NCBI GenBank assembly: GCA_021739765.1
Contig: JAIPBD010000003.1
Location: 124,001 to 188,000, forward strand
DNA from: Melioribacteraceae bacterium
GTDB taxonomy: Bacteria > Bacteroidota > Ignavibacteria > Ignavibacteriales > Melioribacteraceae
DNA length: 64,000 bases
Direction of reading: 5' to 3'
The notes below the pieces were generated by a model. That model searched no databases. It was not told the origin of the DNA and saw nothing but the letters and a program-made list of their open reading frames with translations. Made by a program: the position numbers and the translations under genes. Of this stretch, positions 24,221 through 43,662 are shown one piece after another (positions within the stretch are counted from its first letter, which is position 1; each line of letters begins with the position of its first letter).

Positions 24221-25047
24221 GAATTAATTCCGGAGAAGTAAAACTAAATCTAATCTGGAAAGAAGATCCGCGAATTTCTTCAAAACAGCCGATCATGTTT
24301 TTACATGGTTTTACCGGTAACTCATCCGAATGGCATTTTTTTTTTGATAAAGTAAATCCACATTTTAATCCCATCGCAATTGATCTGATCGGGCATGGAG
24401 AATCGGACAGCCCCAACGAACTAAACCATTACACTATACTTTCGATCACAAAACAATTCGATTCGATCATCAAAAAGATTCCCAATAAAATTATATTACA
24501 CGGCTATTCAATGGGAGGAAGGGTATTGCTGAACTACTTATTTCTCACTTCTCTCATTAACAAAATAAAAGCAATAATACTTGAAAGCACTTCATGCGGT
24601 ATTGAGAATCCAATTGAGCGGAAAGCACGGGAAAATTCCGATTTGACTCTTGCTGAAAAAATATTGAAAAACGGCGTAGAAAATTTTATTGACGATTGGA
24701 TGCAAAAACCCATTTTCAGCGGTTTGAAAAATCTTGAATCCTCAGAATACACGTCATTTGTGAAAAAAAAGAAATTAAATAGCAAGATCGGTTTAGCAAA
24801 TAGTTTGAAAGGATTTGGCACCGGGAAAATGGACTATCTTGGAAATCGTTTGAACGAAATCGAAATTCCCGTTTTGCTGCTCAACGGTGAAAACGACCAG
24901 AAATTTGTATCAATAAATAAAAAAATGAAATCTCGATTTATTAACGCGAAGCACGTGATAATTGAAAATTGCGGACACAACATTCATTTAGAAAAGCCTT
25001 CGGAATTTCTTAATTTTGTGAACCATTTTCTAACCAAAATTGGTTAA
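24217..25047 (+). CDS. menH: SHCHC synthase MenH (alpha/beta hydrolase)
   Basis: Eliminates pyruvate from SEPHCHC to give SHCHC. The 276 residues have the alpha/beta hydrolase fold with oxyanion-region MFLHGFTGNSSEW, nucleophile elbow GYSMGG and the catalytic His in NCGHNIHLEKPSEF. Position between menD and menB fixes the role; without context it could be any hydrolase of this fold. Confidence 0.9.
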   Translation: MRINSGEVKLNLIWKEDPRISSKQPIMFLHGFTGNSSEWHFFFDKVNPHFNPIAIDLIGHGESDSPNELNHYTILSITKQFDSIIKKIPNKIILHGYSMGGRVLLNYLFLTSLINKIKAIILESTSCGIENPIERKARENSDLTLAEKILKNGVENFIDDWMQKPIFSGLKNLESSEYTSFVKKKKLNSKIGLANSLKGFGTGKMDYLGNRLNEIEIPVLLLNGENDQKFVSINKKMKSRFINAKHVIIENCGHNIHLEKPSEFLNFVNHFLTKIG

Positions 25048-25067
25048 TTATAAAAAAAGGATAATTG

Positions 25068-25901
25068 ATGTCTTTTAATTGGGAAAAAGCAAAAGAGTAC
25101 AACGACATTCTCTATGAAAAAATGGACGGTATCGCGAAGATAAGCATAAACCGACCGGAAGTAAGAAACGCGTTCAGACCGGATACGGTTTTAGAAATGT
25201 TCGATGCGTTTAATGATGCGAGAGAGGATGAATCGGTTGGTGTAATATTGTTAACCGGAGCCGGACCGGCAAAAGACGGAAAATACGCATTCTGCGCCGG
25301 TGGTGATCAAAAAATTCGTGGTGATAAAGGTTATGTCGGAAGTGATGGCGTGCCTCGGCTAAATATTCTCGATGTGCAAAAACAAATCAGAAGTATTCCC
25401 AAACCTGTTATTGCTTTAGTTGCCGGATACGCGATTGGCGGCGGACATGTTCTACACGTGATTTGCGATATGACAATCGCGGCAGAGAATGCAATTTTTG
25501 GCCAAACCGGACCAAAAGTCGGGAGTTTTGATGGCGGTTTTGGCGCCAGTTATTTAGCCCGGATTGTGGGACAAAAACGAGCTCGCGAAATTTGGTATTT
25601 GTGTCGACAATATAATGCCTCCGAAGCTTACGAAATGGGACTCGTTAACAAGATTGTTCCGGTTGAGGAACTCGAAGCTGAAGGAGTTCAATGGGCGAAA
25701 GAAATTCTTGAAAAAAGTCCACTCTCAATTCGACTTTTGAAATCAGCCTTTAATGCTGAACTTGACGGGCAAGCCGGGATTCAGGAATTAGCCGGAAATG
25801 CAACTCTTTTGTATTATATGAGCGAAGAGGCGCAAGAAGGCAGAAACGCATACAATCAAAAACGTAAACCGGATTTTTCAAAATTTCCGCGCGTGCCTTA
25901 A
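25068..25901 (+). CDS. menB: 1,4-dihydroxy-2-naphthoyl-CoA synthase MenB
   Basis: Crotonase-fold enzyme closing the second ring of the naphthoquinone from o-succinylbenzoyl-CoA. I choose ATG 25068, with AGGA 7-10 bases upstream, over TTG one codon earlier; this gives 277 residues. Signature segments are [11 protein letters not shown] and [21 protein letters not shown]. The residues Q146-T147-G148 are the type I pattern, in which bicarbonate acts as base, rather than the QTDAD type. It overlaps menA by one base (TAATG). Confidence 0.97.
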
Positions 25902-26800
25902 TGAACACAGCATCTTTAAGTGAAATTGGATTAGTTGAAAGATGGCTCCTCGCAAGTCGACCAAAAACTTTATTAGCTTCCCTGGTTCCGGTTTTTGTTG
26001 GCGGATCGATCGCAATATTTAATAATGTTTTTCACGGCCCCGCATTTGCGATAGCATTAATCTGTTCTGCATTAATTCAAGTTGGAACAAACTTCACGAA
26101 TGATTTATTTGATCATCTCACCGGAAAGGATACCGAAAAGCGTGTCGGACCAACGCGCGCGGTCTCTTCCGGATTAATCAAAGTTAGTGAGATGAGATTC
26201 GCGGTTTATTTTACGTTTGGATTATCTTTCGTTCTTGGTCTATACCTGGTTTACCTCGGTGGATGGATAATTCTTTTAATAGGAATTGTTTCAATTTTTG
26301 CCGGAGTCGCATATACCGCCGGACCATTTCCTTTAGCTTATAATGGACTCGGAGATATTTTCGTATTCCTCTTTTTTGGATTCGTTGGAACAGTTGGTAC
26401 ATATTACGTTCAGGCTTTGGAGTTTTCATGGTTGGCATTTTGGGCTTCTATTCCGGTCGGAGCTCTAATTACAAATATTCTTGTTGTTAATAATTACAGA
26501 GATCGAATTGAAGACAGACAAAACGGAAAAAACACGCTTGCAGTAAAATTCGGCGCTAAATTCACACGTATTCAATATGTAACTTTTATGGTGCTCTCTT
26601 ATTCCGTGTTATTTTTGGTCTATGTCACATTTAAACAAAGTTTATTGATTTTTCTTCCGTTAATCTCACTTCCATTAGCCGTTAAATTAATTGTTATGAT
26701 TTACAATTTGGAAGGAACAGAATTAAATAAAGCCTTGGAACTGACCGCAAAGCTATCAGCCATTTATGGAATTTTATTCGCGATTGGTATTCTGATATGA
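25901..26800 (+). CDS. menA: 1,4-dihydroxy-2-naphthoate prenyltransferase MenA
   Basis: Membrane UbiA-family enzyme that attaches the polyprenyl tail to DHNA. The 299 residues have about eight to nine membrane helices and the two Asp-rich diphosphate-binding motifs, NDLFDHLTGKDTEKR (about 67-80) and NNYRDRIEDRQNGKNTLAVKFG. The start codon overlaps the menB stop, and the end overlaps menC by 4 bp. Confidence 0.96.
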   Translation: MNTASLSEIGLVERWLLASRPKTLLASLVPVFVGGSIAIFNNVFHGPAFAIALICSALIQVGTNFTNDLFDHLTGKDTEKRVGPTRAVSSGLIKVSEMRFAVYFTFGLSFVLGLYLVYLGGWIILLIGIVSIFAGVAYTAGPFPLAYNGLGDIFVFLFFGFVGTVGTYYVQALEFSWLAFWASIPVGALITNILVVNNYRDRIEDRQNGKNTLAVKFGAKFTRIQYVTFMVLSYSVLFLVYVTFKQSLLIFLPLISLPLAVKLIVMIYNLEGTELNKALELTAKLSAIYGILFAIGILI

Positions 26801-27852
26801 TTTTGAAAAGGGTTAAATATAAACCTTTTCGTTTAAATTTTAACTCGTCATTTAACAATTCCAAAACTACTTTTGCGTTTCGCGATGTTATTTTTTTTGA
26901 AGCCGAAGATTCATGCGGACGAATCGTTTACAGCGAATCTGCTCCGCTTCCAGAATTTGGGACCGAAACCACAGATTCTATCACCAATTGTTTTGATGAA
27001 GTTATCAAAGATATATTGGGGAAAGAAATCCATTCGTTTGATGATATCACAAATTTATTAGATCCTATCGGAAACAAACCTTCATTGAAATGCGGATTAG
27101 AACAAATTCTGATCGCCCTACTTATTCGTGAAAATCCAGCTTTATTTCCAAAGAGTACAAGTCATTTTGAAGTAAACGGTCTGATAGGATTAAATGATCA
27201 TCAAGAGATCGAAAAAGTTTTGGAGGAAAAAATTAATGACGGCACTAAAGCCATTAAATTAAAAGTGAACCGCGACAATCATATATTTTTATCTCAACTA
27301 ATTAATAATTCAACATTCGCAATAAAAAACAACATTCGTTTTAGATTGGATGCAAACTCGATATTTTCATTCGAAGAAGCTGAACGCGTGCTGAAATCTT
27401 TTGATCCGAAAAAAATAGAATATTTCGAACAACCCACGTCATCGATAAATGAAATGGAAATCCTCGAACAAAATTCTGAGATACCGATCGCTTTGGATGA
27501 ATCTTTAACAAGTTACGATCATGTCGAAAAATTGATAAAGGATTCGCAGATCAAATACTTTATTATAAAACCGATGGTTTTAGGTGGGATACTAAAAATA
27601 AATAGATTGAAAAAAATAGCCAACGATTATGGGAAAAAGTTGATCGTATCCTCCGCTTTGGAGAGCCACATCGGGAAAATACATTTGCTATTTGGATGTG
27701 CGATCCTAAATAATAATGAAACGCATGGAATTGATACCTCTTTTATGTTTTCGAATAATCCGACAAATGATCAATTCCCAACAATATCCGGCAAGGTGGA
27801 TTGGGAAGCCGAACTATTCTTAAATGAAGTGAGGACAACCATTTTTGAGTAA
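26797..27852 (+). CDS. menC: o-Succinylbenzoate synthase MenC
   Basis: Enolase-superfamily enzyme dehydrating SHCHC to o-succinylbenzoate. The 351 residues include the Lys-x-Lys base region KAIKLKV, the metal ligands RLDANSIF, EQPT and DESLTS, and the second lysine near FIIKPMVLGG. It follows menA with a 4-bp overlap and overlaps menE by 8 bp. The divergent sequence is normal for this family, and the operon settles the role. Confidence 0.92.
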   Translation: MILKRVKYKPFRLNFNSSFNNSKTTFAFRDVIFFEAEDSCGRIVYSESAPLPEFGTETTDSITNCFDEVIKDILGKEIHSFDDITNLLDPIGNKPSLKCGLEQILIALLIRENPALFPKSTSHFEVNGLIGLNDHQEIEKVLEEKINDGTKAIKLKVNRDNHIFLSQLINNSTFAIKNNIRFRLDANSIFSFEEAERVLKSFDPKKIEYFEQPTSSINEMEILEQNSEIPIALDESLTSYDHVEKLIKDSQIKYFIIKPMVLGGILKINRLKKIANDYGKKLIVSSALESHIGKIHLLFGCAILNNNETHGIDTSFMFSNNPTNDQFPTISGKVDWEAELFLNEVRTTIFE

Positions 27853-29266
27853 TTCTAAAAATGTAAAAATATCGTTATTTGATGGGGCAAATAAGAATCC
27901 CGAAAAAATTTTTATTTGTTCCAAAGATCGAAAGCTTTCGAACAATGACGTGATCAATGAATCTTTTTTTCTAACAGGGAAATTTCGTCAAGAAGGAATT
28001 TGTGAAAAAGATAAAGTTGTTCTTTTCCTCCCAAATTCAATTGAATTTGTGATCTCAATTTTAGCACTTTGGAGAATCGGAGCGGTTCCAATTCCGTTAA
28101 ATCCCAAACTGAACAAAAAACTATTATCCGAGCAATTAATCTTTTCTGATTCCAAATTTATTCTTTCAACGGATATTGAATTAAAAGTTGATTGTGCCAA
28201 AAGTATAATAATTGATCTCGATCGAACAACAAATCCCGTTCCTTCAGAGTCATTTGTAAATTTAGATTCGGTCGCATTAATGCAATTCACATCAGGTAGT
28301 TCCGGAATTCCCAAGTTAGTTCCGCTTACATTTAGTAATATTTTTGCGAGCATTGAGTGTACGAATTCCCTTTCTCGATTGAGTGAATCGGATTATTGGT
28401 TTGCCTCACTCCCATTTTTCCACATCGGCGGATTTTCGATTCTAACGCGTTCTTTTTTTACAAATGCGTCGGTTTACATAATTGATAATTTTAAAGTAGA
28501 GGACTTCAAATCTGTTTTGGAAGTTGAACAAATAACTCATCTTTCTCTTGTTCCAACAATGCTGAATGAATTGTTAAATGATAGAATTGGATTTCCCTCA
28601 TCCCTCAAAGCAGTTTATATCGGAGGCGCGGCCTCAACCCAAGGTTTACTTAAAGAAGCGCTGGAGCTCGGATTACCGATCTTTAAAGTTTACGGCTCAA
28701 CTGAAACTTGTTCGATGATCTCCGGTTTTCCTCTTCGGGAATTTCCACACAAAATTGAATCGTCCGGTCTGCCTCTAAAAAACGTAAAAATTGATATTGA
28801 TGGAAAAGAAGGCAGAATTAAGATTAAATCCGAAACCATTACCAAAGGATATTACAAACTGGAGGCTTTATCACATAGCTCGTTCACAAAGGGCGAGTTT
28901 TGTTCAAATGATGTCGGTTGGATTGACACAGATGGTTTTTTATTTGTCCAATCAAGAGCTGATAGGATAATCAACAGCGGCGGCGAAAAAATTGATCCGG
29001 CTGAGGTTGAATCAGTTCTGATGCAAATTCCGGGCATCTCAGACTGTGCTGTGTTTGGCAAACCTGATAAAAAGTGGGGAGAAAGTTTGACTGCGGCGAT
29101 TGTGTCAAAGGACAATTCGACTTCCCGCGATTCAATACAAACATATCTTGAAGGGAAATTGATAAATTTCAAAATTCCAAAAGAATATTACTTCGTCGAC
29201 AAAATTCCTAAAAGCGCAATAGAGAAAATTGACTTAAAATCTCTATTGGAGAAGATTGGCATTTAG
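27845..29266 (+). CDS. menE: o-Succinylbenzoate-CoA ligase MenE
   Basis: AMP-forming ligase that activates o-succinylbenzoate for MenB. The 473 residues show the P-loop MQFTSGSSGIPKLVPLT, FKVYGSTETCSM and INSGGEKIDPAEVE, the core motifs of the ANL superfamily, and the C-terminal catalytic lysine region IPKSAIEKIDLK. It starts at TTG 27845, overlapping menC by 8 bp. Its last 24 bases overlap the convergent thioesterase gene. Confidence 0.94.
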   Translation: MSNSKNVKISLFDGANKNPEKIFICSKDRKLSNNDVINESFFLTGKFRQEGICEKDKVVLFLPNSIEFVISILALWRIGAVPIPLNPKLNKKLLSEQLIFSDSKFILSTDIELKVDCAKSIIIDLDRTTNPVPSESFVNLDSVALMQFTSGSSGIPKLVPLTFSNIFASIECTNSLSRLSESDYWFASLPFFHIGGFSILTRSFFTNASVYIIDNFKVEDFKSVLEVEQITHLSLVPTMLNELLNDRIGFPSSLKAVYIGGAASTQGLLKEALELGLPIFKVYGSTETCSMISGFPLREFPHKIESSGLPLKNVKIDIDGKEGRIKIKSETITKGYYKLEALSHSSFTKGEFCSNDVGWIDTDGFLFVQSRADRIINSGGEKIDPAEVESVLMQIPGISDCAVFGKPDKKWGESLTAAIVSKDNSTSRDSIQTYLEGKLINFKIPKEYYFVDKIPKSAIEKIDLKSLLEKIGI

Positions 29267-31112: not shown

Positions 31113-32006
31113 TTAAGCATGAATTGCCATCCCGCTTTTAGCATTTTTAAGATCGATTAAATATTCCGGATTTTCAGTATCAATTATAAAAAAACGAGAA
31201 TCATTATCACGGTTTTCAATGCAACCGCCCGCATTTAGGAATTGGATATCGTTACGCCTATATTCTCTAATTTCGTGACTGTGTCCGTGAAGGACCAAAT
31301 CGAATCCGTGTTTCCCCAAAAATTTGATCACCTTTTTCTTACCGCGTAATTTCATTGAAAAGGATTCTACTCTATCCCAAAGCGGACTATTGGAGGCAGA
31401 AGCTTTTTCTTTTTTTCTGTAAAAGTGGTGATGAACAAGCGCGATTCTACGTTTTGTTTTTGATATTTTTGAATCCAATACGGACATTAATTTATTCGCG
31501 TTTTCCAATTGCAGAGAATCGATCCTCCCGTTGGAAGCAAAAGGATTGTTGAGCTTCGAATAAAATGGAATTGAGTTTAACCCAAGGAAAACCACGTCTC
31601 GTAACTCCTTCACATAAGGAAATATCTGCGTTTCGGATATTCGAATTGTGTCTAAGAATAATTCTTGAAATTGATTTGTAAATAAATCCAGCTTTTCGGC
31701 ATAATTTGTCGCAAGACATTTTGAAGGAAAGTTTACAATATCCATCGCGGTAAAAACTCCGCCGAATATATCGTGATTCCCAACCACAACACTTGTTTTT
31801 TGTGATTTGAAAAGTCCGAAATCTTTTAACATTCGTCTAAATGTCCTAAAATCCTTCTCTTCCGCGTTATCTGAAATATCTCCGGTTATTACAACATGAT
31901 CCACTTCATTCTCAACAGCTAATGCCAAAAGTTTCTCTGTTTGCGAGATATTATATTTTTTGTATAATGAATTGAAATGTAAATCTGAAATGTGTGCGAT
32001 TTTCAA
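31113..32006 (-). CDS. Calcineurin-like metallophosphoesterase
   Basis: A 297-residue cytoplasmic protein with the dimetal phosphoesterase motifs in order: ISDLHF (D-x-H), TGDISDN (G-D-x-x-D), VVGNHDIFGG (G-N-H-D/E), ALVHHHFYRK and LHGHSHEI (G-H-x-H). All metal ligands are present. The family includes cyclic-nucleotide phosphodiesterases, and the substrate cannot be told here. It is transcribed convergently to the MORN protein and divergently from the surface-sugar operon. Confidence 0.88.
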   Translation of the reverse strand: MKIAHISDLHFNSLYKKYNISQTEKLLALAVENEVDHVVITGDISDNAEEKDFRTFRRMLKDFGLFKSQKTSVVVGNHDIFGGVFTAMDIVNFPSKCLATNYAEKLDLFTNQFQELFLDTIRISETQIFPYVKELRDVVFLGLNSIPFYSKLNNPFASNGRIDSLQLENANKLMSVLDSKISKTKRRIALVHHHFYRKKEKASASNSPLWDRVESFSMKLRGKKKVIKFLGKHGFDLVLHGHSHEIREYRRNDIQFLNAGGCIENRDNDSRFFIIDTENPEYLIDLKNAKSGMAIHA

Positions 32007-32222: not shown

Positions 32223-33245
32223 ATGGATAGAAAAAAGATCCTATTTATTGTCGGCTCACTGAATCAAACTACAATGATGCATAAGATTTCCAAATACTAC
32301 GAAAAGGACTTTGATTGCTGCTTTTCGACATATTACGGTGATGGTATTATTCGTTATGCCGCGGAAAGGGGCGTTTTGGATTTTTCTATTCTTGGCGGAG
32401 AATTCAGACGAAGATCAGAGGATTACTTAAATGCCCACGATTTGGAAATTGACTACAGAGGCGCTAATTATAATTATGATTTGGTTTTTCTCTGTTCCGA
32501 CCTTATCGTTCCAAAAAATATTCGTAACACAAAAATCATTTTAGTTCAAGAGGGAATGACTGACCCCGAGAATTTTATTTACTATTTGGTGAAATATTTA
32601 AAACTTCCCCGCTGGATTGCCAGCACTTCAACTACTGGTCTTTCAAATCGGTTTGATAAATTCTGTGTCGCATCGGAAGGTTATAAAGAATTTTTTATTA
32701 AAAAAGGCGTTAAGCCCCAAAAACTTGTAGTAACCGGAATACCAAACTTCGATAATGTTGCCATTCATCTTAATAATGAATTCCCTCATAAAAATTTTGT
32801 TTTGGTCGCTACCTCCGATTCCCGGGAAACTTTCAAATATGAGAATAGAAAAGCATTTATTCGCAAATGCTTAAAAACTGCAAACGGAAGACAAATAATT
32901 TTCAAACTCCATCCAAATGAAAATTTTGAAAGGGCAACCAAAGAAATTAAAGATATTGCTCCCGAGGCACTCGTTTACACGGATGGGAATATCGATGATA
33001 TGATCGCTAATTGTGAAACTCTTATCACAAAATATTCATCAGTGGTTTATGTCGGAATAACACTCGGCAAGGAAGTTTACTCCTATTTCGATTTAGAAAA
33101 ATTAAAAGCGAAAGCTCCGATTCAGAATGGCGGAACCTCGGCGGAAACAATTGCAAAAGTTGGTTATGATTTATTGTTTCAAACCAAAACGGTTCGCCAA
33201 ACTCGTTCACAACGATACAAATTACAAGAAGCACTAAACGCGTAA
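32223..33245 (+). CDS. GT-B fold transferase, possible CMP-sugar-dependent glycosyltransferase
   Basis: A 340-residue protein with two Rossmann halves, a linker near 165-180 (VVTGIPNFDNV) and a nucleotide-binding C-terminal half. It carries HP in FKLHPNE (230-231), SS in TKYSSVVYVG (272-273) and QEG (109-111). Bacterial sialyltransferases have comparable HP, S-S/T and D/E-D/E-G motifs, and CDP-glycerol glycerophosphotransferases share the fold. Because the next genes make a CMP-activated acid sugar, I infer that this enzyme transfers it. No signal peptide. First gene of a ten-gene run; a UDP-sugar epimerase-like role cannot be excluded. Confidence 0.6.
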   Translation: MDRKKILFIVGSLNQTTMMHKISKYYEKDFDCCFSTYYGDGIIRYAAERGVLDFSILGGEFRRRSEDYLNAHDLEIDYRGANYNYDLVFLCSDLIVPKNIRNTKIILVQEGMTDPENFIYYLVKYLKLPRWIASTSTTGLSNRFDKFCVASEGYKEFFIKKGVKPQKLVVTGIPNFDNVAIHLNNEFPHKNFVLVATSDSRETFKYENRKAFIRKCLKTANGRQIIFKLHPNENFERATKEIKDIAPEALVYTDGNIDDMIANCETLITKYSSVVYVGITLGKEVYSYFDLEKLKAKAPIQNGGTSAETIAKVGYDLLFQTKTVRQTRSQRYKLQEALNA

Positions 33246-33249
33246 TGTT

Positions 33250-34074
33250 ATGAATGATTCCAACATTGTTACCGTAATTCAAGCCAGAGTCGGCTCTTCC
33301 CGACTGCCAAACAAGGTTATGTTGTCACTCTGCGGAAAACCTCTGCTTTTTCGAATGTATGAAAGGGTAAAAGCGGCAACTTTATCCGGAACCGTTGTAA
33401 TCGCTACTTCAAAAGAAAAAGAGGACGATAAAATTGAAGAATTCTGTTTGGAATCAAATATTCTTTGTTACCGTGGAGATATAAATGATTTGCTTGACAG
33501 ACATTATCAAGTCGGGCTAAATTTTAACGCTGATGCCGTTGTTAAAATTCCCTCGGATTGCCCGTTAATCGATCCCCGAATTATCGATAAAGTAATTAAA
33601 TATTATCTGGTAAACAGAGACAAATTTGATTTCGTGAGCAATTTGCATCCTCCATCTTATCCTGATGGAAATGATGTCGAAATTATGTCAATGTCAGCTT
33701 TAACAAAAGCATGGGAGAATGCGACCCGAAAATTAGAAAGGGAGCATACAACCCCTTTTATTTGGGAAAATCCGGATAAGTTTAGAATCGGAAACGTTCT
33801 TTGGGAAACCGGACTTGATTATTCAACAACTTACCGTTGGACGATTGATTACGAAAAAGATTACATTTTTATTCGATCTGTTTATGAGGAGCTTTTTCCT
33901 TCAAATAAAAATTTTAGTATGTATTCAATCATTAATTTGATAAAAGAAAAACCTTATCTCGGAATGATAAACGAAGAATATCTTGGAAATTATTGGTATG
34001 AAAATCATCTTGATGAACTAACTAATATCGCTGAATTCAAACAAAAACGCATACGAACGGTTAACGATTATTAA
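33250..34074 (+). CDS. SpsF-like cytidylyltransferase family protein
   Basis: A 274-residue nucleotidyltransferase opening with VIQARVGSSRLPNKVML, the CTP-binding signature of SpsF, NeuA and KdsB-type enzymes, followed by KIPSDCPLIDP, whose acidic residues bind metal. Such proteins activate acidic sugars as CMP derivatives. The C-terminal part (about 180-274) is SpsF-specific and not found in NeuA. It begins 5 bases after the GT-B gene. The exact sugar is unknown. Confidence 0.85.
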   Translation: MNDSNIVTVIQARVGSSRLPNKVMLSLCGKPLLFRMYERVKAATLSGTVVIATSKEKEDDKIEEFCLESNILCYRGDINDLLDRHYQVGLNFNADAVVKIPSDCPLIDPRIIDKVIKYYLVNRDKFDFVSNLHPPSYPDGNDVEIMSMSALTKAWENATRKLEREHTTPFIWENPDKFRIGNVLWETGLDYSTTYRWTIDYEKDYIFIRSVYEELFPSNKNFSMYSIINLIKEKPYLGMINEEYLGNYWYENHLDELTNIAEFKQKRIRTVNDY

Positions 34075-34085
34075 AAAGGATTTAT

Positions 34086-35432
34086 ATGAACGGTATAAAA
34101 TTTAATGATGAATATCCAACAATAAACAATTCAAATAATCTCTACCAACGTGCACTGAAGCTGATTCCTTCCGTAACACAAACACTTGCAAAAGGGCCGA
34201 CTCAGTTCGTAAATGGAATCGCTCCGAAGTATTTAAAAAAGGGAAAAGGTTCACATGTTTGGGATGTTGATGGAAACGAATATATAGATTTTAACATGGG
34301 AATCGGACCACTATCACTTGGTTATGCCTACCCGGTTGTTGATGAAGCAATCAAAAAACAATTGGAGGATGGAATTACATTTTCGCTTATGCATCCTCTT
34401 GAAGTTGAAGTTGCCGAATTAATGAAAGAAGTTATTCCCAACGCGGAGATGGTTCGGTACAGTAAAACCGGCGCCGATGTAACAAGTGCCGCGATTAGAT
34501 TGGCAAGAGCGTACACAAGACGAAATAAAATTTTATGCTGTGGTTATCACGGCTGGCACGATTGGTATGTCAGCGTCACTTCTAAAAATCATGGAATTCC
34601 GGGACCAATTCAAGACTTAACTAACACTTTCAGCTATAATGATATTGATTCGTTAAGGGATTCAATCGATGATGACACCGCGGCGGTTATTTTAGAACCT
34701 GTAGTTTTCGAAGAACCGAAAGATAATTTTCTCCATAAAGTTGCTGAGCTTTGCAAGGAAAAAGGCGTAGTGCTAATTTTTGATGAAATGTGGACCGGTT
34801 TTCGAATGGCAACCGGCGGGGCTCAAGAATTTTTTGGAATTGCTCCCGATTTGGCGACTTATTCTAAAGCAGTAGCGAATGGAATGCCGATTTCCCTTCT
34901 AACCGGAAAAGAAGAAATAATGAAACTCGCCGAAGACGACATTTTCTTTTACACCACATTTGGCGGTGAAGCTTTATCTCTTGCCGCAACTATGGCTACG
35001 GTTAATGAAATTCGGACTAAAAATGTAACCGAATTTCTCGCTTCACAAGGCGCTAAATTGAAAGATGGTTACAACAAAATCGTTTCCGATTTGGGAATCG
35101 ATTATACAAAAGCAACTGGCTACAATTGGCGTTCAATTGTTACATTTGACGGAAAAGCGGGTGATCCGTTACTTCTAAAATCTCTCGTTCAACAAGAAAT
35201 GATCAAACGCGGCATTCTTTGGGGAGGATTTCACAATATGTCTTTTTCCCATTCAAATGAGGATGTTCAATACACTTTAAAAGTTTACGAAGAAGTTCTG
35301 CCAATTCTCAAAAATGCAGTCGATAAAAACAAAGTCGCTGAATCTATTAAAGGAGAACCGGTGAAACCTGTCTTTCGTAAAACCAGTAATTTTAATATGA
35401 AACCCGTTAGCAACAAACTTAAAAAAGGATAA
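34086..35432 (+). CDS. Class III PLP aminotransferase, glutamate-1-semialdehyde aminomutase-like
   Basis: A 448-residue PLP enzyme: the lysine is K261 in TYSKAVANGMP, the Asp anchoring the pyridine nitrogen lies in IFDEMWTGFR (233), and the substrate-side CCGYHGWHDW is typical of HemL-like members. A role in haem synthesis is unlikely, given its place between a cytidylyltransferase and an SDR in a sugar operon. I infer that it installs an amino group on a sugar or sugar-acid intermediate. The more common sugar aminotransferases belong to the DegT family, which this is not. Confidence 0.85.
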   Translation: MNGIKFNDEYPTINNSNNLYQRALKLIPSVTQTLAKGPTQFVNGIAPKYLKKGKGSHVWDVDGNEYIDFNMGIGPLSLGYAYPVVDEAIKKQLEDGITFSLMHPLEVEVAELMKEVIPNAEMVRYSKTGADVTSAAIRLARAYTRRNKILCCGYHGWHDWYVSVTSKNHGIPGPIQDLTNTFSYNDIDSLRDSIDDDTAAVILEPVVFEEPKDNFLHKVAELCKEKGVVLIFDEMWTGFRMATGGAQEFFGIAPDLATYSKAVANGMPISLLTGKEEIMKLAEDDIFFYTTFGGEALSLAATMATVNEIRTKNVTEFLASQGAKLKDGYNKIVSDLGIDYTKATGYNWRSIVTFDGKAGDPLLLKSLVQQEMIKRGILWGGFHNMSFSHSNEDVQYTLKVYEEVLPILKNAVDKNKVAESIKGEPVKPVFRKTSNFNMKPVSNKLKKG

Positions 35433-35436
35433 TATA

Positions 35437-35610
35437 TTGAATAAGAAAATTTTACCCGCTGCTGGAATCATTATTGTAACAATAATTTTAGTAACAATTA
35501 ATGAGCTTACTGAATTGACTTTTATCAAGGATTATGCGTTGATATTTATTATCTCTGGAATGCTGTTTGGCGTTTTGCTGACAAAATTATCCGGTAGGTC
35601 AAAAGAATAA
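35437..35610 (+). CDS. 57-residue membrane protein
   Basis: A TTG start at 35437 with AAAAAAGGAT about 7 bases upstream opens a frame of 57 codons ending in TAA at 35608-35610. The product has two hydrophobic stretches (about 6-20 and 33-50) with a polar middle (NELTELTFIKD) and a basic end. It begins 4 bases after the aminotransferase stop, so it is certainly in the operon. No family is recognised. It is too small for automated cut-offs and may be missed in most annotations. Confidence 0.65.
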   Translation: MNKKILPAAGIIIVTIILVTINELTELTFIKDYALIFIISGMLFGVLLTKLSGRSKE

Positions 35611-35689
35611 AACAAATAAATTCAGGTGCAGATAAAAAATATACGCCATTAAAACCGGCGTTTCTAAAAACCGTTAAAAAGAATTAATT

Positions 35690-36493
35690 ATGGAATTATT
35701 TTCATTAAATGGTAAGGTCGCGATAGTAACAGGAGCGTTAGGGCTAATCGGAAAGGAACATTGTAAAGCACTTTCTGAAGCCGGAGCAAATGTAGTTGTC
35801 GCCGATTTGAACTTAGAAAAATGTGAAGAGTTTGCTCTGTCATTAAAAACGAAATCTATTGGGGTTTTTCTTGATGTAACCCGTAAAGAAATTTTAGAAT
35901 CCGCACTAAATACGATAATTGATAGATTCGGCAAAATCGATATTCTAATTAACAACGCGGCAATTAATGATATGTTCGAAAATCCAAAAGCGGCCGCGGA
36001 ACAATCTAAGTTCGAAAATTACCCGCTCGAAATCTGGCAAAAATCGCTCGATGTTAATCTTACCGGTGTGTTTCTGTGTTCCCAAGTTTTTGGAAAACAG
36101 ATGGCGGATCAAGGTTCCGGTTCCATAATAAATATTGCCTCAACCTATGGTATTACGGGTCCCGACCAATCATTATATATCGATAAAAACGGGAAGCAAA
36201 ACTTTTTCAAACCACCGGCTTATTCCGCGACAAAAGGCGGAGTAATCGCTTTCACAAAATATCTTGCGGCATATTGGGGGAAAAACGGAGTAAGGGTAAA
36301 TACTTTATCGCCGGGCGGAGTAGAAAATAACCAGGATGAATTTTTCATCGAACAATACTCAAAACGAACTCCGCTAAACAAAATGGCGGAAGTAAATGAT
36401 TACAAAGGGGCTGTTGTTTTTTTGGCAAGCGATGCTTCAAAATATATGACTGGCGCTAACCTAATTGTTGATGGTGGTTGGACTTGTTGGTAA
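35690..36493 (+). CDS. Short-chain dehydrogenase/reductase
   Basis: A 267-residue classical SDR: the NAD(P)-binding TGALGLIG, the NNAAIND segment and the catalytic Y-x-x-x-K in AYSATKGGVIAF are intact; the Ser is in INIAST. It probably oxidises or reduces a sugar intermediate for the amino-sugar or ulosonic acid steps. An 80-bp gap precedes it, the longest in the operon. Confidence 0.88.
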   Translation: MELFSLNGKVAIVTGALGLIGKEHCKALSEAGANVVVADLNLEKCEEFALSLKTKSIGVFLDVTRKEILESALNTIIDRFGKIDILINNAAINDMFENPKAAAEQSKFENYPLEIWQKSLDVNLTGVFLCSQVFGKQMADQGSGSIINIASTYGITGPDQSLYIDKNGKQNFFKPPAYSATKGGVIAFTKYLAAYWGKNGVRVNTLSPGGVENNQDEFFIEQYSKRTPLNKMAEVNDYKGAVVFLASDASKYMTGANLIVDGGWTCW

Positions 36494-36503
36494 AGGAACC
36501 GAT

Positions 36504-37010
36504 ATGTTGAATTTGGATGAGAAAATAAAAGAAAAAGCAGCCAAAATTAAACTGCTTCTAACCGATTGTGACGGTGTATTAACCGATACCGGGGTTTACT
36601 ATTCAGCAAATGGTGAAGAGTTAAAACGCTTTTCCATTCGTGATGGAATGGGAGTCGAAAGATTAAAAAACCACGCCAATGTTGAAACGGGAATCATTAC
36701 CGGTGAAAATTCCGAAATTGTTAAACGGCGAGCTGAAAAACTTATGATAACCGAACTTCATCTGGGTATTAAAAATAAAGTAGAAACTTTTTACGAGATT
36801 TTATTGCGAAAAAATTTGAAAGCCGAAGAAGTCGCGTATCTCGGCGATGACACAAACGATCTTGAAATCATGAAGTTAGCGGGATTGGCGGCATGTCCCG
36901 CCGACGCAACTATTTTCGCGCAGCAGGTTTCGGATATAATTTTAGAAAACCGCGGTGGAAATGGCGCTTTAAGAGATTTTGCCGAGATAATAATTTATTG
37001 TAAAAACTGA
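36504..37010 (+). CDS. KdsC-like HAD phosphatase
   Basis: A 168-residue HAD hydrolase of the KdsC type: LLTDCDGVLTD holds the nucleophile Asp21 and acid Asp23, and GIITGENS and LGDDTNDLEIM are the other motifs. KdsC removes phosphate from 3-deoxy-ulosonic acid 8- or 9-phosphates, the step after a NeuB/KdsA-type condensation. I prefer ATG 36504, preceded by AAAGGAA, to the ATG 39 bases upstream that overlaps the SDR gene. Confidence 0.88.
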   Translation: MLNLDEKIKEKAAKIKLLLTDCDGVLTDTGVYYSANGEELKRFSIRDGMGVERLKNHANVETGIITGENSEIVKRRAEKLMITELHLGIKNKVETFYEILLRKNLKAEEVAYLGDDTNDLEIMKLAGLAACPADATIFAQQVSDIILENRGGNGALRDFAEIIIYCKN

Positions 37011-37026
37011 ATTGGGGGAAATTCAA

Positions 37027-37899
37027 ATGGCAGTAAGGAAAACCGGTAATAAATTAATTGGCGATAATCAGCCGGTGTATGTGATAGCGGAAATAGGAAT
37101 TAACCATAACGGATCTTTAGAAAATGCGAAAAAAATGATTGACGGTGCTGTATTTGCCGGATGTGATGCTGTGAAATTTCAAAAAAGAACACCGGAGGTT
37201 TGCGTTCCGGCCGATCAATGGAATATAGAACGCGATACACCCTGGGGTCGAATGAAATATATTGATTACCGCCATAAAGTCGAATTCGGTTTTGCCGAAT
37301 TTGATCAAATCGATCATTACTGTAAAGAGAAAAATATTGATTGGTTCGCTTCTCCGTGGGATGAAAACGCGGTCACATTTTTGGAAGAGTTTGATCCGAT
37401 TATGTACAAAGTCGCTTCGGCATCATTAACTGATTTTGCGCTTCTAAACAAATTAATCGCGACAGGCAAACCGATTATGCTTTCAACCGGAATGTCGAAT
37501 ACCGACCAAATAGAACAAAGCGTAAAATTAGTAGGAGAAGAAAATCTGTTACTTGCGCAATCAACTTCAAACTATCCGTGTTTGTTGGAAGAACTCAATA
37601 TCAGGGTGGTTTCCACTTATAAAGAAAAATATCCCGATATTCCCATTGGATATTCAGGGCACGAAGTAGGATTAGCTCCTACATTAGCTGCGGTTGCCCT
37701 TGGTGCCACTTTTGTTGAACGACACATAACTTTAGACCGAGCAATGTGGGGATCGGATCAGGCGGCTTCTGTGGAAATTAATGGAATGTATCGACTTGTT
37801 AAAGACATTCGCGATGTTGAACAATCGCTCGGTGATGGTATTAAAAGAGTGTATGAAAGCGAAATGAAATCACTGAAGAAATTACGCTTAGTAAAATAA
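37027..37899 (+). CDS. NeuB-family ulosonic acid synthase lacking the SAF domain
   Basis: A TIM-barrel synthase that condenses phosphoenolpyruvate with a sugar to form a nonulosonic or related acid. The family markers are VIAEIGINHNGSLENAKKMI, DAVKFQKRTP, STGMSN and IPIGYSGHEVG. The protein is about 290 residues and ends just after the barrel (EMKSLKKLRLVK), where sialic acid synthases (about 340-350) continue with the antifreeze-like SAF domain. I use ATG 37027 after GGGGGAA, not TTG 37012. Preceding genes supply the phosphatase and cytidylyltransferase of the same pathway. Confidence 0.85.
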   Translation: MAVRKTGNKLIGDNQPVYVIAEIGINHNGSLENAKKMIDGAVFAGCDAVKFQKRTPEVCVPADQWNIERDTPWGRMKYIDYRHKVEFGFAEFDQIDHYCKEKNIDWFASPWDENAVTFLEEFDPIMYKVASASLTDFALLNKLIATGKPIMLSTGMSNTDQIEQSVKLVGEENLLLAQSTSNYPCLLEELNIRVVSTYKEKYPDIPIGYSGHEVGLAPTLAAVALGATFVERHITLDRAMWGSDQAASVEINGMYRLVKDIRDVEQSLGDGIKRVYESEMKSLKKLRLVK

Positions 37900-37909
37900 A
37901 GGAATAATA

Positions 37910-38707
37910 ATGGAATTCAGCCAAACCCAACTAATAGGATTTGGTCTACTGATTCTCGGATCTTTGATAATAATCTCACTTGAAAGAATTTTCCCTTATG
38001 ATAAAGGGCAAAAAATCTTCAGGAAGGAATTTTTTCTTGATTTCTTCTGGTATAATATTTTTCAAAGCGCACTTCTTGGAATTGTCATTTTTAGTTTTAT
38101 CATTAATTATATTGATTCAACAACCGGGTTATCACGATTTCAAATCGTAACCGATTGGCCGGTTTGGGTTCAATTGCTTTTTTTCACAATTACTCACGAT
38201 TTGTACATCTATCTTTTTCATAAATGGCAGCATAAAAATAAATTTTTATGGCGATTACATGAAGCGCATCACTCACCCAAAGAAGTCGATTGGATTTCCG
38301 GTGCCAGATCTCACGCCGGCGAAATATTGATTAATCAAACAATAGAATTTTTACCTATCGTTTTACTCGGAGCTCCTGCTGAAGTTGTAATATTTAAAAG
38401 TGTAATCAGCGGTGTTTGGGGAATGTGGATTCACGCGAATGTCGACGTTCATTCCGGCAAACTTCAAAAATATATTAACGGTCCCGAGATGCATCGTTGG
38501 CATCATTCCACCGGAAAAGGGCGAAACCGGAACTTCGCTACAAAATTTGCTGTCTGGGATTGGATTTTCGGAACAGCTTATTTGCCAAACGAAAAACCGG
38601 ATGATTATGGACTCAAAACTGAATTCCCTGCTAATTATTTTACTCAATTGGCTTTCGCGTTCCGACCATTCAAAAAAACTGTCAGAAAAATCAACAAAGA
38701 AGCTTAG
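37910..38707 (+). CDS. Di-iron membrane hydroxylase (sterol desaturase/fatty acid hydroxylase family)
   Basis: A 265-residue membrane enzyme with about four hydrophobic segments and the full set of histidine clusters: H104-x3-H108, H117-x2-HH (120-121) and H195-x2-HH (198-199). These bind the di-iron centre that hydroxylates lipids. The next gene is an OlsF-like ornithine-lipid synthase, so a role like OlsE (hydroxylation of an ornithine lipid) is plausible. The family also includes sterol and ceramide hydroxylases, so the substrate is inferred from context. Confidence 0.85.
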   Translation: MEFSQTQLIGFGLLILGSLIIISLERIFPYDKGQKIFRKEFFLDFFWYNIFQSALLGIVIFSFIINYIDSTTGLSRFQIVTDWPVWVQLLFFTITHDLYIYLFHKWQHKNKFLWRLHEAHHSPKEVDWISGARSHAGEILINQTIEFLPIVLLGAPAEVVIFKSVISGVWGMWIHANVDVHSGKLQKYINGPEMHRWHHSTGKGRNRNFATKFAVWDWIFGTAYLPNEKPDDYGLKTEFPANYFTQLAFAFRPFKKTVRKINKEA

Positions 38708-38731
38708 AATAAACGAGCAGAGGTTTAGAAA

Positions 38732-40522
38732 ATGAAAGAAGAAGCATATAAACCGATAAATATCCGAGAGACAATCGAGGAAAAATTTCCTAAGCTTATT
38801 TTGAATAGACCTGATTGGATCGTGAAACTTATCGTCGGTTCAATTAACAAGGTTCTGCATGTTGATCAAATAAACGATTTACTTTCACGCAATCATGGCA
38901 AAAAAGGCATTGAACTTATTGATGATCTTTTCGATGAGCTGAATTTTTCCTATCAAGTTTCAAATAGTGACTTAAAAAAGATACCCGCCGAAGGCAGATT
39001 AATTCTTGTAGCGAATCATCCTATCGGAAGTTTGGATGGACTGTCTCTTTATAAATTGGTTTACGAGTTGCGCAAAGATGTTAAAGTTGTTACAACCGAT
39101 ATCCTGAGTCAAATACAAATATTCAAAGATGTTTTTCTCGGTGTTGATATTGAAACGTTAAGCGAACAAAGGAAAAGTATTGTTCAAATCGGGCGGGCAC
39201 TTCAAAATGAAGAGGTAGTAATTATTTTTCCGGCAGCCGAAGTCGCAAGATTGAATTTTTTCCGGGTTCGGGATTCCAGATGGAACAAAGGTTCGATCTT
39301 TTTCGCGAAAAAATTCAATGTCCCTATTTTGCCGGTTTATGTCCATGCAAGAAATTCCTGGTTCTTTTATCTCTTCTCGATGATAAACAAAGGGCTTTCG
39401 CGAGTTCTTCTCGCTAACGAAATGTATAACAAGAAGAATAAAACTATCAATTTGAAAATCGGTGATCCAATTCCTACAAGAGCTTTCAGTTCAGATGGAA
39501 TTAATATTAAAGCCAAAACTCATCTTCTTAAAAAGCATGTTTACAGCTTAAAATCCGGCAAGGGCGGTTTCTTCGCCACAGAGAAAAATATTATTCACCC
39601 GGTTGACAGCAAAATAGTTCACAAGGAGTTAATGAAAGCAAAATTCCTTGGGAAAACCGGTGACGATAAATTAATAATCCTTACTTCAATGGAAGAATCT
39701 CCGAATGTTGTGCAAGAAATTGGAAGACTTCGCGAATTAACATTTCGCAAAGTTGGGGAAGGAACAGGAAAAAAAGTTGACCTTGACAAGTTCGACAAAT
39801 ACTACAAACACATAGTTGTATGGGATGAAAACGAACTGGATATCGTCGGCGCATATCGTCTCGGTGTCGGTAAAGAGATTATAAAAGATTATGGATTTGA
39901 TGGCTTTTACTCATCAACTTTGTTTAAATATCGCGAGGTTTTTACGCGAGATTACCTGCCGGATTCAATTGAACTCGGAAGAAGTTTTGTGCAAAAAAAA
40001 TATTGGAATACCAACGCGCTTCATTATCTCTGGTTGGGGATCGGAGCTTATTGCGCTCATAATCCCGAAACAAAATATATGTTCGGCCCCGTGAGTATCT
40101 CGAACAGTTATCCCGAGCAATCAAAGAATTGGATAGTGGCATACTGCCAAAAATGGTTCAGCACCGAAACAGAATTCGCCTCCGCAAACCGAAGATTTTT
40201 AATCCACGAAGAAGAACGGGAAAAAATAAATAAAATATTTGTGGGTGAAAATCACAAGCAAGATTACTTCACGGTAAAAAACATGCTTAAGCCAATGGGA
40301 TTCACATTCCCGGTTCTTTATAAACATTATTCCGAATTATGTGATGAAAATGGCGTACAATTTTTAGATTTTGGTGTCGATCCCGATTTTGAAAATTGTA
40401 TTGACGGACTAATTCTTGTTGATATCGCTAAAATAAAGGATGAGAAGAAGGAACGATACATAACTCCTTTTATTCCTGATGCTAACAAGAAAGAAAACCA
40501 ATTTCACTCAACAACTGTCTGA
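38732..40522 (+). CDS. OlsF-like bifunctional acyltransferase (aminolipid synthase)
   Basis: A 596-residue two-domain protein. The N-terminal part (about 70-280) is a PlsC-type acyltransferase with NHPIGSLDG (His96, Asp102). The C-terminal part (about 330-580) is a GNAT-like N-acyltransferase (EIGRLRELTFRKVGEGTG). This order is that of OlsF, in which the C-terminal half acylates the amino group of ornithine and the N-terminal half adds the second acyl chain. The amino acid used here is not known. It is the last gene of the operon, followed by a hairpin at 40544. Confidence 0.85.
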   Translation: MKEEAYKPINIRETIEEKFPKLILNRPDWIVKLIVGSINKVLHVDQINDLLSRNHGKKGIELIDDLFDELNFSYQVSNSDLKKIPAEGRLILVANHPIGSLDGLSLYKLVYELRKDVKVVTTDILSQIQIFKDVFLGVDIETLSEQRKSIVQIGRALQNEEVVIIFPAAEVARLNFFRVRDSRWNKGSIFFAKKFNVPILPVYVHARNSWFFYLFSMINKGLSRVLLANEMYNKKNKTINLKIGDPIPTRAFSSDGINIKAKTHLLKKHVYSLKSGKGGFFATEKNIIHPVDSKIVHKELMKAKFLGKTGDDKLIILTSMEESPNVVQEIGRLRELTFRKVGEGTGKKVDLDKFDKYYKHIVVWDENELDIVGAYRLGVGKEIIKDYGFDGFYSSTLFKYREVFTRDYLPDSIELGRSFVQKKYWNTNALHYLWLGIGAYCAHNPETKYMFGPVSISNSYPEQSKNWIVAYCQKWFSTETEFASANRRFLIHEEEREKINKIFVGENHKQDYFTVKNMLKPMGFTFPVLYKHYSELCDENGVQFLDFGVDPDFENCIDGLILVDIAKIKDEKKERYITPFIPDANKKENQFHSTTV

Positions 40523-42156: not shown

Positions 42157-42299
42157 TTTAGCTCCAAGTAAATGGTTCAATTATTTGTTTTATACTTTGA
42201 TTAACATTCATGGTTCCAATCGTCCGCCCCAACTTTCAAATCAAACTTTCATTAAGTATTTTGCGAATTCATTTTATAGAAAGGATTCCACAATTGCTA

Positions 42300-42509
42300 A
42301 TGATCGAAATTCTCCCGGACAAATGTGACTTTTGCGGATGTTGTGTCGGAATTTGTCCCGAAGACGCAATTGAACTAAAAGAAGCGGAAATTAATATTGT
42401 TGAAGAGCTTTGCACGAATTGTTCTAAATGTATTTGGGCTTGCCCGATTGAAGTTTTTAAGTTCAACAGGAATGGTGTTGGAAAGGTAAATAGTGAAGAA
42501 ATCGTATGA
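42300..42509 (+). CDS. Ferredoxin with two 4Fe-4S clusters
   Basis: A 69-residue electron carrier (from ATG 42300) with two full C-x2-C-x2-C-x3-C-P motifs at Cys 9/12/15/19 and 38/41/44/48. The RBS AAGGA is better spaced for the TTG at 42294, two codons earlier. A longer N-terminal reading from 42210 is unlikely, as it would add a non-ferredoxin stretch. The gene overlaps the following reductase by 17 bp, suggesting that it supplies electrons to it. Confidence 0.9.
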   Translation: MIEILPDKCDFCGCCVGICPEDAIELKEAEINIVEELCTNCSKCIWACPIEVFKFNRNGVGKVNSEEIV

Positions 42510-43662
42510 TGTAGTTATAGTTGGAGCCGGTCCCGCCGGAACAGTTGCAGCCAGATTCGCAGCAGAACAGGGAATTTCAGTTTTAGTTTTAGAAAAAGAT
42601 CGCGACGTTGGGTATCCGGTTCGCTGTGGAGAAGCTATTAGCCATGCCGGAGTCGCGGAATTTATCGAACCGGATCAAAAATTTATTGCCTCAACAATCA
42701 CAAAATTTGGAATGGTTTCTCCCGATGGAACTGAAGTTATCGTTCCGCTTGAGGAGAAAGGCTACGTTCTGGAGAGAAGAATTTTTGATTACGAACTCGG
42801 CAAAATGGCATCTTCAGCCGGTGCCGAAATTCTAACTCGCGCTTACGTAAATGGATTGATGATAAAGGATGACAAAGTTTGCGGCGTAAAATTCGAGTAT
42901 CGCGGGGAAAAGCGTGAAGTTGAAGCGAAAGTCGTAATTGGTGCCGACGGAGTTGAATCGAGAGTAGGACGATGGGCCGGAATTAAAACCTATATCGACT
43001 TTAGAGATATGGAATGCTGCACCCAAATTACCGCTTCAGGAATTCCGATTGGCGATGATACTTGCTTTTTCTATTTCGGACAGGAATACGCGCCTCAAGG
43101 ATATTTCTGGGTTTTCCCCAAAGGTGAAAATACAGCAAACATAGGTCTTGGCGTAAGCGGAATGGTTGGACGAAAACGTTCAGCGCAATCTTTTCTTGAT
43201 CATTTTATGGATAAATTTCATCCGGACGCATCCATTATGACTCGCATAGCTGGCGGAGTTCCTTGCGTTACAACGCTTGAAAAAATTTCCGCTCCGGGAA
43301 TAATTCTTGTCGGTGATGCCGCGCGTCAAGTAAATCCACTTTCAGGAGGAGGAATAGCTTCAGGAATGATTGGCGGTAAAATCGGGGGGACAATTGCCGC
43401 TAAAGCGATTAAAGAAAACAATCTTGATTTGATCTTGAACTACGACAAAGCATGGAATGACAGACTTGGAAAACGCCATGAAATTTTCGATAAAATTAAA
43501 AACGGCATCTACAATTTTACCGATGAAAAATTTAACGATATCGCGCATTCTTTCAATAAAGTTCCGATGGAAAAAAGAAGTCTGGGAAATTTATTTAAAA
43601 AAGCCTTAATCAATAATCCTTCATTATTAGTTGATATCGCAAAAGTTTTTGTATTTAAATGA
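42493..43662 (+). CDS. Geranylgeranyl reductase family FAD enzyme
   Basis: A 389-residue flavoprotein with GAGPAGTVAARFAAEQG (FAD GxGxxG), the CGEAIS segment typical of the family, and VGDAARQVNPLSGGGI (GD box). Members reduce isoprenoid double bonds, for example in archaeal lipids, chlorophyll tails or menaquinone side chains (MenJ). As menaquinone is made nearby and a ferredoxin precedes it, saturation of a menaquinone or polyprenyl chain is a plausible role. The start is a GTG. Its stop overlaps the kinase ATG (ATGA). Confidence 0.88.
   Translation: MKKSYDVVIVGAGPAGTVAARFAAEQGISVLVLEKDRDVGYPVRCGEAISHAGVAEFIEPDQKFIASTITKFGMVSPDGTEVIVPLEEKGYVLERRIFDYELGKMASSAGAEILTRAYVNGLMIKDDKVCGVKFEYRGEKREVEAKVVIGADGVESRVGRWAGIKTYIDFRDMECCTQITASGIPIGDDTCFFYFGQEYAPQGYFWVFPKGENTANIGLGVSGMVGRKRSAQSFLDHFMDKFHPDASIMTRIAGGVPCVTTLEKISAPGIILVGDAARQVNPLSGGGIASGMIGGKIGGTIAAKAIKENNLDLILNYDKAWNDRLGKRHEIFDKIKNGIYNFTDEKFNDIAHSFNKVPMEKRSLGNLFKKALINNPSLLVDIAKVFVFK

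Follow-up and report, generated by a model that had tools for sequence, protein, structure and literature searches.

A recurrent bacterial gene set that appears to couple an unusual sialic-acid-related acidic sugar to membrane-lipid chemistry

The operon considered here comprises nine plus-strand genes, separated by gaps of 4–79 bp, at positions 32223–40522 of a 64-kb stretch of a Melioribacteraceae contig (JAIPBD010000003.1; the window, by which we mean that whole stretch), and the described systems closest to it belong to ulosonic acid and aminolipid biosynthesis. With the sialic, legionaminic, and pseudaminic acid clusters it shares a NeuB-family synthase and a cytidylyltransferase, but its nine genes include no LegB/LegC, no PseB/PseC-type enzyme, no sugar N-acetyltransferase, and no SAF domain. 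The 8-amino-Kdo pathway (KdnA/KdnB), in which an ulosonic acid is oxidized and then transaminated, would be a parallel if the class III aminotransferase (AT3) and the SDR oxidoreductase of the operon act on the sugar, but that pathway employs other aminotransferase and dehydrogenase families, and the operon contains a NeuB, not a KdsA. From ornithine- and glycine-lipid synthesis (OlsF, OlsB/OlsA, OlsE, GlsB/GlsA) we recognize an OlsF equivalog along with a member of the OlsE superfamily—the fatty acid hydroxylase-like protein that we designate FAH—but the latter falls far under the OlsE cutoff and tracks NeuB and AT3 over the PF13444 acyltransferases. Certain Streptomyces loci possess a SAF-less NeuB of 65–68% identity together with a CMP transferase and a HAD protein, which two are fused in L149 and L145; but no match to the glycosyltransferase-like protein (GT), AT3, the transketolase halves described below, or FAH was found in those loci, and L149, the one scanned with Pfam, carries next to its NeuB a PF07388 polysialyltransferase-like gene and a DUF6716 putative transferase. 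The product of such a locus we take to be teichulosonic acid. That component of the Streptomyces cell wall is a galactose–Kdn polymer (PMC7831098, PMC11481543). Finally, the phosphorylated Kdn route of Bacteroides thetaiotaomicron and Prymnesium parvum, where a synthase is followed by a phosphatase, likewise involves a NeuB-type synthase, a HAD phosphatase, and a CMP-sugar synthetase (PMC6200933), but that account, in the part available to us, describes neither a class III aminotransferase nor a split transketolase, an SDR, or a hydroxylase, and the HAD of the window scores under the equivalog cutoff.

The operon thus compared is one instance of a widely shared bacterial set that appears to couple an unusual sialic-acid-related acidic sugar to membrane-lipid chemistry. 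Its recurrent core across the class Ignavibacteria reads GT–CMP transferase (CMPt)–[split transketolase]–AT3–SDR–HAD–NeuB–FAH, and the sugar pathway occurs in about one third of the class genomes sampled (62 of 197) and is found in four phyla. L115, whose record bears the name of the cultured species Melioribacter roseus, also has this core. Our best reading is that the product would be an acidic ulosonate glycolipid that contains an amino group and whose acylation varies; and we assign a probability of roughly 0.45 to the view that the pathway is a conserved one leading to a membrane glycolipid that is acidic and bears an ulosonate, on the basis of the gene content, the conservation, the co-occurrence, and the recurrent lipid-type attachments that we observed. 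The sequence-only reading had announced ten genes while naming nine; the operon itself is real and constitutes a more general phenomenon than could have been seen from a single stretch. Among the matches listed, the open-licence papers contained no description of this operon, which constitutes a weak negative.

To measure co-occurrence, we searched the 197 class genomes in their entirety for NeuB, AT3, FAH, OlsF, and PF13444, with presence cutoffs set from the search tables at 53, 55, 50, and 44% identity for the first four, respectively; one NeuB of 46% identity, interrupted by an internal stop (G065), does not enter the counts, and the Fisher p values for co-occurrence ignore shared ancestry. 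NeuB relatives of at least 53% identity were present in 65 genomes and were clearly set apart from the NeuBs near 35%. The 62 genomes with AT3 all contained the SAF-less NeuB, and of the 58 with FAH, 56 were AT3-positive (56/62, versus 2/135 of the others). A sample of 395 genomes from the phylum contained AT3 in 53, of which 15 belonged to other classes, and all 15 possessed both NeuB and FAH.

At the level of loci, which we fetched by their NeuB and counted with the window excluded, AT3 lay on the same strand in 59 of 68, and near it we found the GT in 57, CMPt in 57, the SDR in 53, FAH in 48, the C-terminal transketolase half (TktC) in 48, the N-terminal half (TktN) in 46, and OlsF in 5. 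Because of that manner of retrieval the proximity of NeuB to AT3 is not an independent count, which count is supplied by the genome-wide AT3 search. In several of the 15 AT3-positive genomes of other classes, furthermore, the pathway is scattered: G701 and G858 have TktN–TktC–AT3 in one place and HAD–NeuB–FAH in another, G645 has the genes from GT to AT3 separate from SDR–HAD–NeuB–FAH, and in G736 and G942 NeuB and FAH are separate even from each other. FAH lies away from the operon, and is still co-present, in six class genomes as well as in G736, G942, G650, and G654. The joint presence is therefore not merely a matter of hitch-hiking within one operon.

With respect to the sugar, the NeuB of the window matched PF03102 only, and a Pfam search found no SAF domain, such as would be expected of a sialic, legionaminic, or pseudaminic acid synthase; the protein also remained below the equivalog cutoffs for NeuB_NnaB (242.4 bits against 399.65) and PseI (206.3 against 340.25). 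These failed cutoffs, along with the absence of the usual companion genes from the operon, bear out the claim of an unusual ulosonic acid pathway in the sequence-only reading, and an amino group on the acid, as was also surmised there, is possible. The HAD protein, whose best solved relative is 3e81, exceeded the cutoff of TIGR01670 (141 bits against 107) and found its best NCBIfam model in the Kdn-9-phosphate phosphatase NF058599, at 160.6 bits and thus below the cutoff of 180. Because of this best, though sub-cutoff, match and of the Streptomyces NeuB relatives, the sugar is probably of the Kdn type, the simplest view being that a phosphorylated hexose is the precursor of a Kdn-type acid; and the presence of a phosphatase in the operon fits the phosphorylated Kdn route (PMC6200933) and supports a head group of that type. 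AT3 scored 398 bits against NF004856 (cutoff, 486) and 241 against the hemL equivalog TIGR00713 (cutoff, 527), which latter score weakens its candidacy as a true HemL; its residues K261 and D233 were invariant in 11 sequences, the window included. The pairing of AT3 with the SDR suggests that either the sugar or its partner is oxidized and transaminated to give an amine. The best solved relative of CMPt was 6oew (E 2.7e-40). A search of the host genome with NeuB returned only the protein itself and one partial match of 28%; in the relatives L047 and L118 we observed a second, solo SAF-less NeuB copy adjoined by a convergent OlsF, and for L052 this was deduced from an open reading frame (ORF) common to L101.

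In most loci CMPt and AT3 are separated by two additional genes, which encode a transketolase split into an N-terminal and a C-terminal half; both are missing from the window and from 11 of the 59 class loci. One of the latter, L080, has in their place a 652-aa ORF that matches the two halves at 34 and 26%, as though the split enzyme had given way to a single-piece one. In the host genome the N-terminal half found only long, distant matches of at most 34%. Either a housekeeping enzyme carries out the transketolase step in the lineage of the window or the product there differs.

The connection to lipids begins with FAH, in which 11 histidines (H96, H104, H108, H117, H120, H121, H135, H175, H195, H198, and H199) were invariant in 10 sequences including the window, as is characteristic of the di-iron fatty acid hydroxylase superfamily. 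Its score with the OlsE model NF052566 was 114.2 bits, far below the cutoff of 475, and across the genomes it follows AT3 and NeuB more closely than it follows the PF13444 acyltransferases; we accordingly rejected the view that FAH is simply an OlsE working with OlsF. The structural model of FAH was poor (pLDDT 67), and a Foldseek search with that model gave no significant match. OlsF, in turn, exceeded the cutoff of NF052615 (711.2 bits against 620), with both of its domains, PF13444 and PF19576, present. OlsF at 44% identity or more accompanies AT3 in nine class genomes, and in seven of these it adjoins the operon or a solo NeuB; an eighth adjacency was deduced (G049), and G194 shows none. 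It lies downstream of FAH in six class genomes including the window, an SMR gene intervening in three of these, and also downstream in L121 and L129; in L213 it follows an SMR gene in a locus with no FAH, and in G039 and L118 it is oriented toward a solo NeuB copy.

Other lineages have acquired other genes. The Methylomagnum operon has LplT–OlsB–OlsA attached; in L084 and L090 divergent PF13444 genes lie close to the operon, in the former together with an OlsA-like acyltransferase; a GNAT gene is attached in L122, L124, and L155 (the contig of which last ends upstream of the HAD), with a PhyH gene in addition in L124 and L155; SMR genes occur in seven loci; and a PF03706-type flippase-like gene lies directly upstream of the GT in 12 loci by tblastn, four of them confirmed with Pfam. 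OlsF, OlsB/OlsA, GNAT, and flippase-like genes have been added to the operon in lineages distinct from one another, which makes a lipid role likelier than the OlsF count alone would. The case for a lipid product rests chiefly on this recurrence of diverse lipid-type additions, and the operon exemplifies a core pathway to which interchangeable lipid-type modules are joined. A functional link between the sugar pathway and lipid-type chemistry is supported. The joint sugar–lipid system posited in the sequence-only reading stands for FAH, both within the class and in the other classes, but not for OlsF, which is a lineage-specific addition and not obligate.

Several observations weigh against a glycolipid, the principal one being that a search at E 1e-8 found a PF13444 acyltransferase in only 19 of the 62 AT3-positive class genomes and none in the other 43. 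OlsF of at least 44% identity is missing from 53 of the 62, so that the constant company of sugar genes and an OlsF-type synthase, on which the sequence-only reading had staked its joint system, was not found, and an obligate sugar-plus-OlsF system is rejected on both counts. Six of the 62 are devoid of FAH; G893 and G903, AT3-positive members of the window's own family, also lack it; G003 combines FAH and a partial NeuB with no AT3 match, and G114 has FAH with neither AT3 nor NeuB. The HAD gene stood near AT3 in just 33 of the 59 class loci. Where FAH is located elsewhere in the genome, its neighbours contain no clue to a lipid, and the PF03706 and SMR families serve in polysaccharide export and drug efflux as well.

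In the glycolipid pathway as we picture it—all the substrates, the order of the steps, and the final linkage being our inference—NeuB would condense phosphoenolpyruvate with a phosphorylated, non-acetylated aldose, probably mannose-6-phosphate, into a Kdn-type acid 9-phosphate, from which the HAD would remove the phosphate; CMPt would convert the free acid to the CMP-sugar, and the GT would move the ulosonate from there to an acceptor. AT3 and the SDR, usually with the split transketolase, may oxidize and transaminate either the ulosonic acid or the acceptor and so introduce the amine; FAH may hydroxylate an acyl or acceptor part, and OlsF, in the lineage of the window, might either supply an N-acyl/O-acyl aminolipid or acylate the new amine. 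A bolder version, which we consider doubtful, would have an undescribed class of membrane lipids, in which an aminated Kdn-like acid is acylated at its amine or on the hydroxylated acceptor to give an acidic aminolipid loosely comparable to a ganglioside, with one core maintained in several phyla and acyltransferases, hydroxylases, and flippases added by lineage. If the product is a lipid, these genes would define a new head group among the phosphorus-free lipids and provide a gene set for lipidomics.

The acid might instead be destined for a surface polysaccharide, a lipopolysaccharide, or a protein glycan, with FAH and the flippase-like genes serving lipid A or a lipid carrier and OlsF being an unremarkable synthase of ornithine lipids whose gene came to lie close by. 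CMP-ulosonates do mostly end on surface glycans, ORF1 (the GT) has a sub-cutoff match to the surface-carbohydrate model TIGR04396, the Streptomyces relative L149 has its polysialyltransferase-like neighbour, and the scarcity of PF13444 acyltransferases among the AT3-positive genomes is readily accommodated; but a core with just one glycosyltransferase-like gene and no polymerase, acyltransferases that join in several different arrangements, and the co-presence of FAH with AT3 and NeuB together make this destination rather unlikely. We regard as improbable that two unrelated pathways, one for the sugar and the other for an ornithine lipid made by OlsF and an OlsE-like FAH, simply share a transcript with no common product: the score of OlsF above its equivalog cutoff, the weak OlsE match of FAH, and the presence of OlsF at 44% or more in five AT3-negative class genomes speak for such an arrangement; against it stand the lack of a PF13444 gene in 42 of the 58 class genomes with FAH and the position of OlsF beside the operon or a solo NeuB in seven of the nine genomes that have it together with AT3.

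The identity of ORF1 bears on these readings as well. Its matches to Glyphos_transf and Epimerase_2 in Pfam, as that to TIGR04396 in NCBIfam, were weak and sub-cutoff; its AF2 model was good (pLDDT 81), and the nearest folds, a point that also counts against a glycolipid pathway, were the UDP-GlcNAc 2-epimerases WecB/NeuC, with TagF-type transferases further down. ORF1 could by that token be a 2-epimerase/hydrolase of the NeuC kind, supplying NeuB with a sugar of the N-acetylmannosamine type, with a sialic-like product and the transferase encoded elsewhere, but a profile comparison with one NeuC gave no significant match, the catalytic histidine motif of NeuC is replaced, on reading by hand, by an HP motif, and the NeuB lacks the SAF domain, which in known enzymes contacts the N-acetyl group, so that we deem this assignment improbable. 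The pairs H230–P231 and E110–G111 were invariant in 12 sequences including the window; and since this HP and EG pair is similar to motifs known from bacterial sialyltransferases, we favour ORF1 as a CMP-sugar transferase.

Beyond the phylum, the core occurs with FAH in the Myxococcota (L128 and the partial contig L154), and without it on two contigs of the Chloroflexota (L122 and L124; Promineifilum belongs to that phylum) and on a plasmid of Methylomagnum ishizawai (L192). AT3 was detected in 1 of 188 sampled Myxococcota and 1 of 251 sampled Chloroflexota, each being the seed genome, and the operon is therefore rare in both phyla. Seven Chlorobiaceae loci have NeuB with only a HAD, and a weak HAD match is seen in most of the Streptomyces loci; a tree built from 117 NeuB rows places each of these two groups in a clade of its own inside this NeuB family. 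Two Chlorobiaceae genomes and one Streptomyces genome with NeuB contained no FAH, nor was AT3 present on the loci read, a genome-wide AT3 search not having been made there. Five haloarchaeal AT3 matches have 42–46% identity, and neither of the two loci inspected had other core genes; a Hymenobacter plasmid carries a NeuB at 63%, with the other core genes not found.

The genes of the operon, listed in the order of the window and assigned to families by Pfam and NCBIfam profile searches, are presented in Table 1 with one divergent neighbour.

Table 1. Genes of the operon and the adjoining divergent gene, with positions in the window.
Feature	Position	Strand	Basis and remarks
GT (ORF1), GT-B fold glycosyltransferase-like, 340 aa; probable CMP-ulosonate transferase	32223..33245	+	weak profiles, motifs, AF2 model
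CMPt, SpsF/KdsB-like cytidylyltransferase, 274 aa	33250..34074	+	PF02348, E 3.8e-31
AT3, HemL-like class III aminotransferase, 448 aa	34086..35432	+	PF00202
TM57, small membrane protein, 57 aa; accessory	35437..35610	+	sequence; TTG start
SDR oxidoreductase, 267 aa	35690..36493	+	PF13561/PF00106
HAD, KdsC/Kdn-9-phosphate-phosphatase-like phosphatase	36504..37010	+	start inferred; alternative TTG 36465
NeuB without SAF domain, 290 aa	37027..37899	+	PF03102 only; alternative start TTG 37012
FAH, di-iron fatty acid hydroxylase superfamily, 265 aa	37910..38707	+	PF04116
OlsF, bifunctional N-acyl/O-acyl aminolipid synthase, 596 aa; lineage-specific addition	38732..40522	+	NF052615
Calcineurin-like phosphoesterase, divergent; operon membership uncertain	31113..32006	-	PF00149

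The divergent phosphoesterase was found in 15 of the clustered loci, often adjoining the operon in the window's own family, and a calcineurin-like phosphoesterase of about 260–270 aa follows FAH in L062, L086, L087, L091–L094, and L189. For TM57 we found one clear relative, of 84% identity, in L037 and L116 (probably the same contig), where it is situated between NeuB and FAH, a position differing from that in the window. A gene of the endonuclease/exonuclease/phosphatase family accompanies the SDR–HAD–NeuB–FAH or the FAH–SMR part at L225:12134-13003 (tested with PF03372) and L209:8566-9486 (recognized by eye). Searches of three proteins with PADLOC and of three with PHROGs gave no match; the promoter-like sites numbered 34 against 28.6 in shuffles and the terminator-like sites 12 against 7.4, and the repeats found were short and weak. 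Just upstream of the operon, a plus-strand run at 21052–29266 comprising a chorismate-binding enzyme, a three-domain TPP enzyme, and an AMP-binding ligase is probably a menaquinone operon (MenF/MenD/MenE, by inferred names), and at 42210–43662 a geranylgeranyl-reductase-like FAD enzyme comes after a 4Fe-4S ferredoxin, the two possibly forming a pair that saturates the menaquinone side chain.

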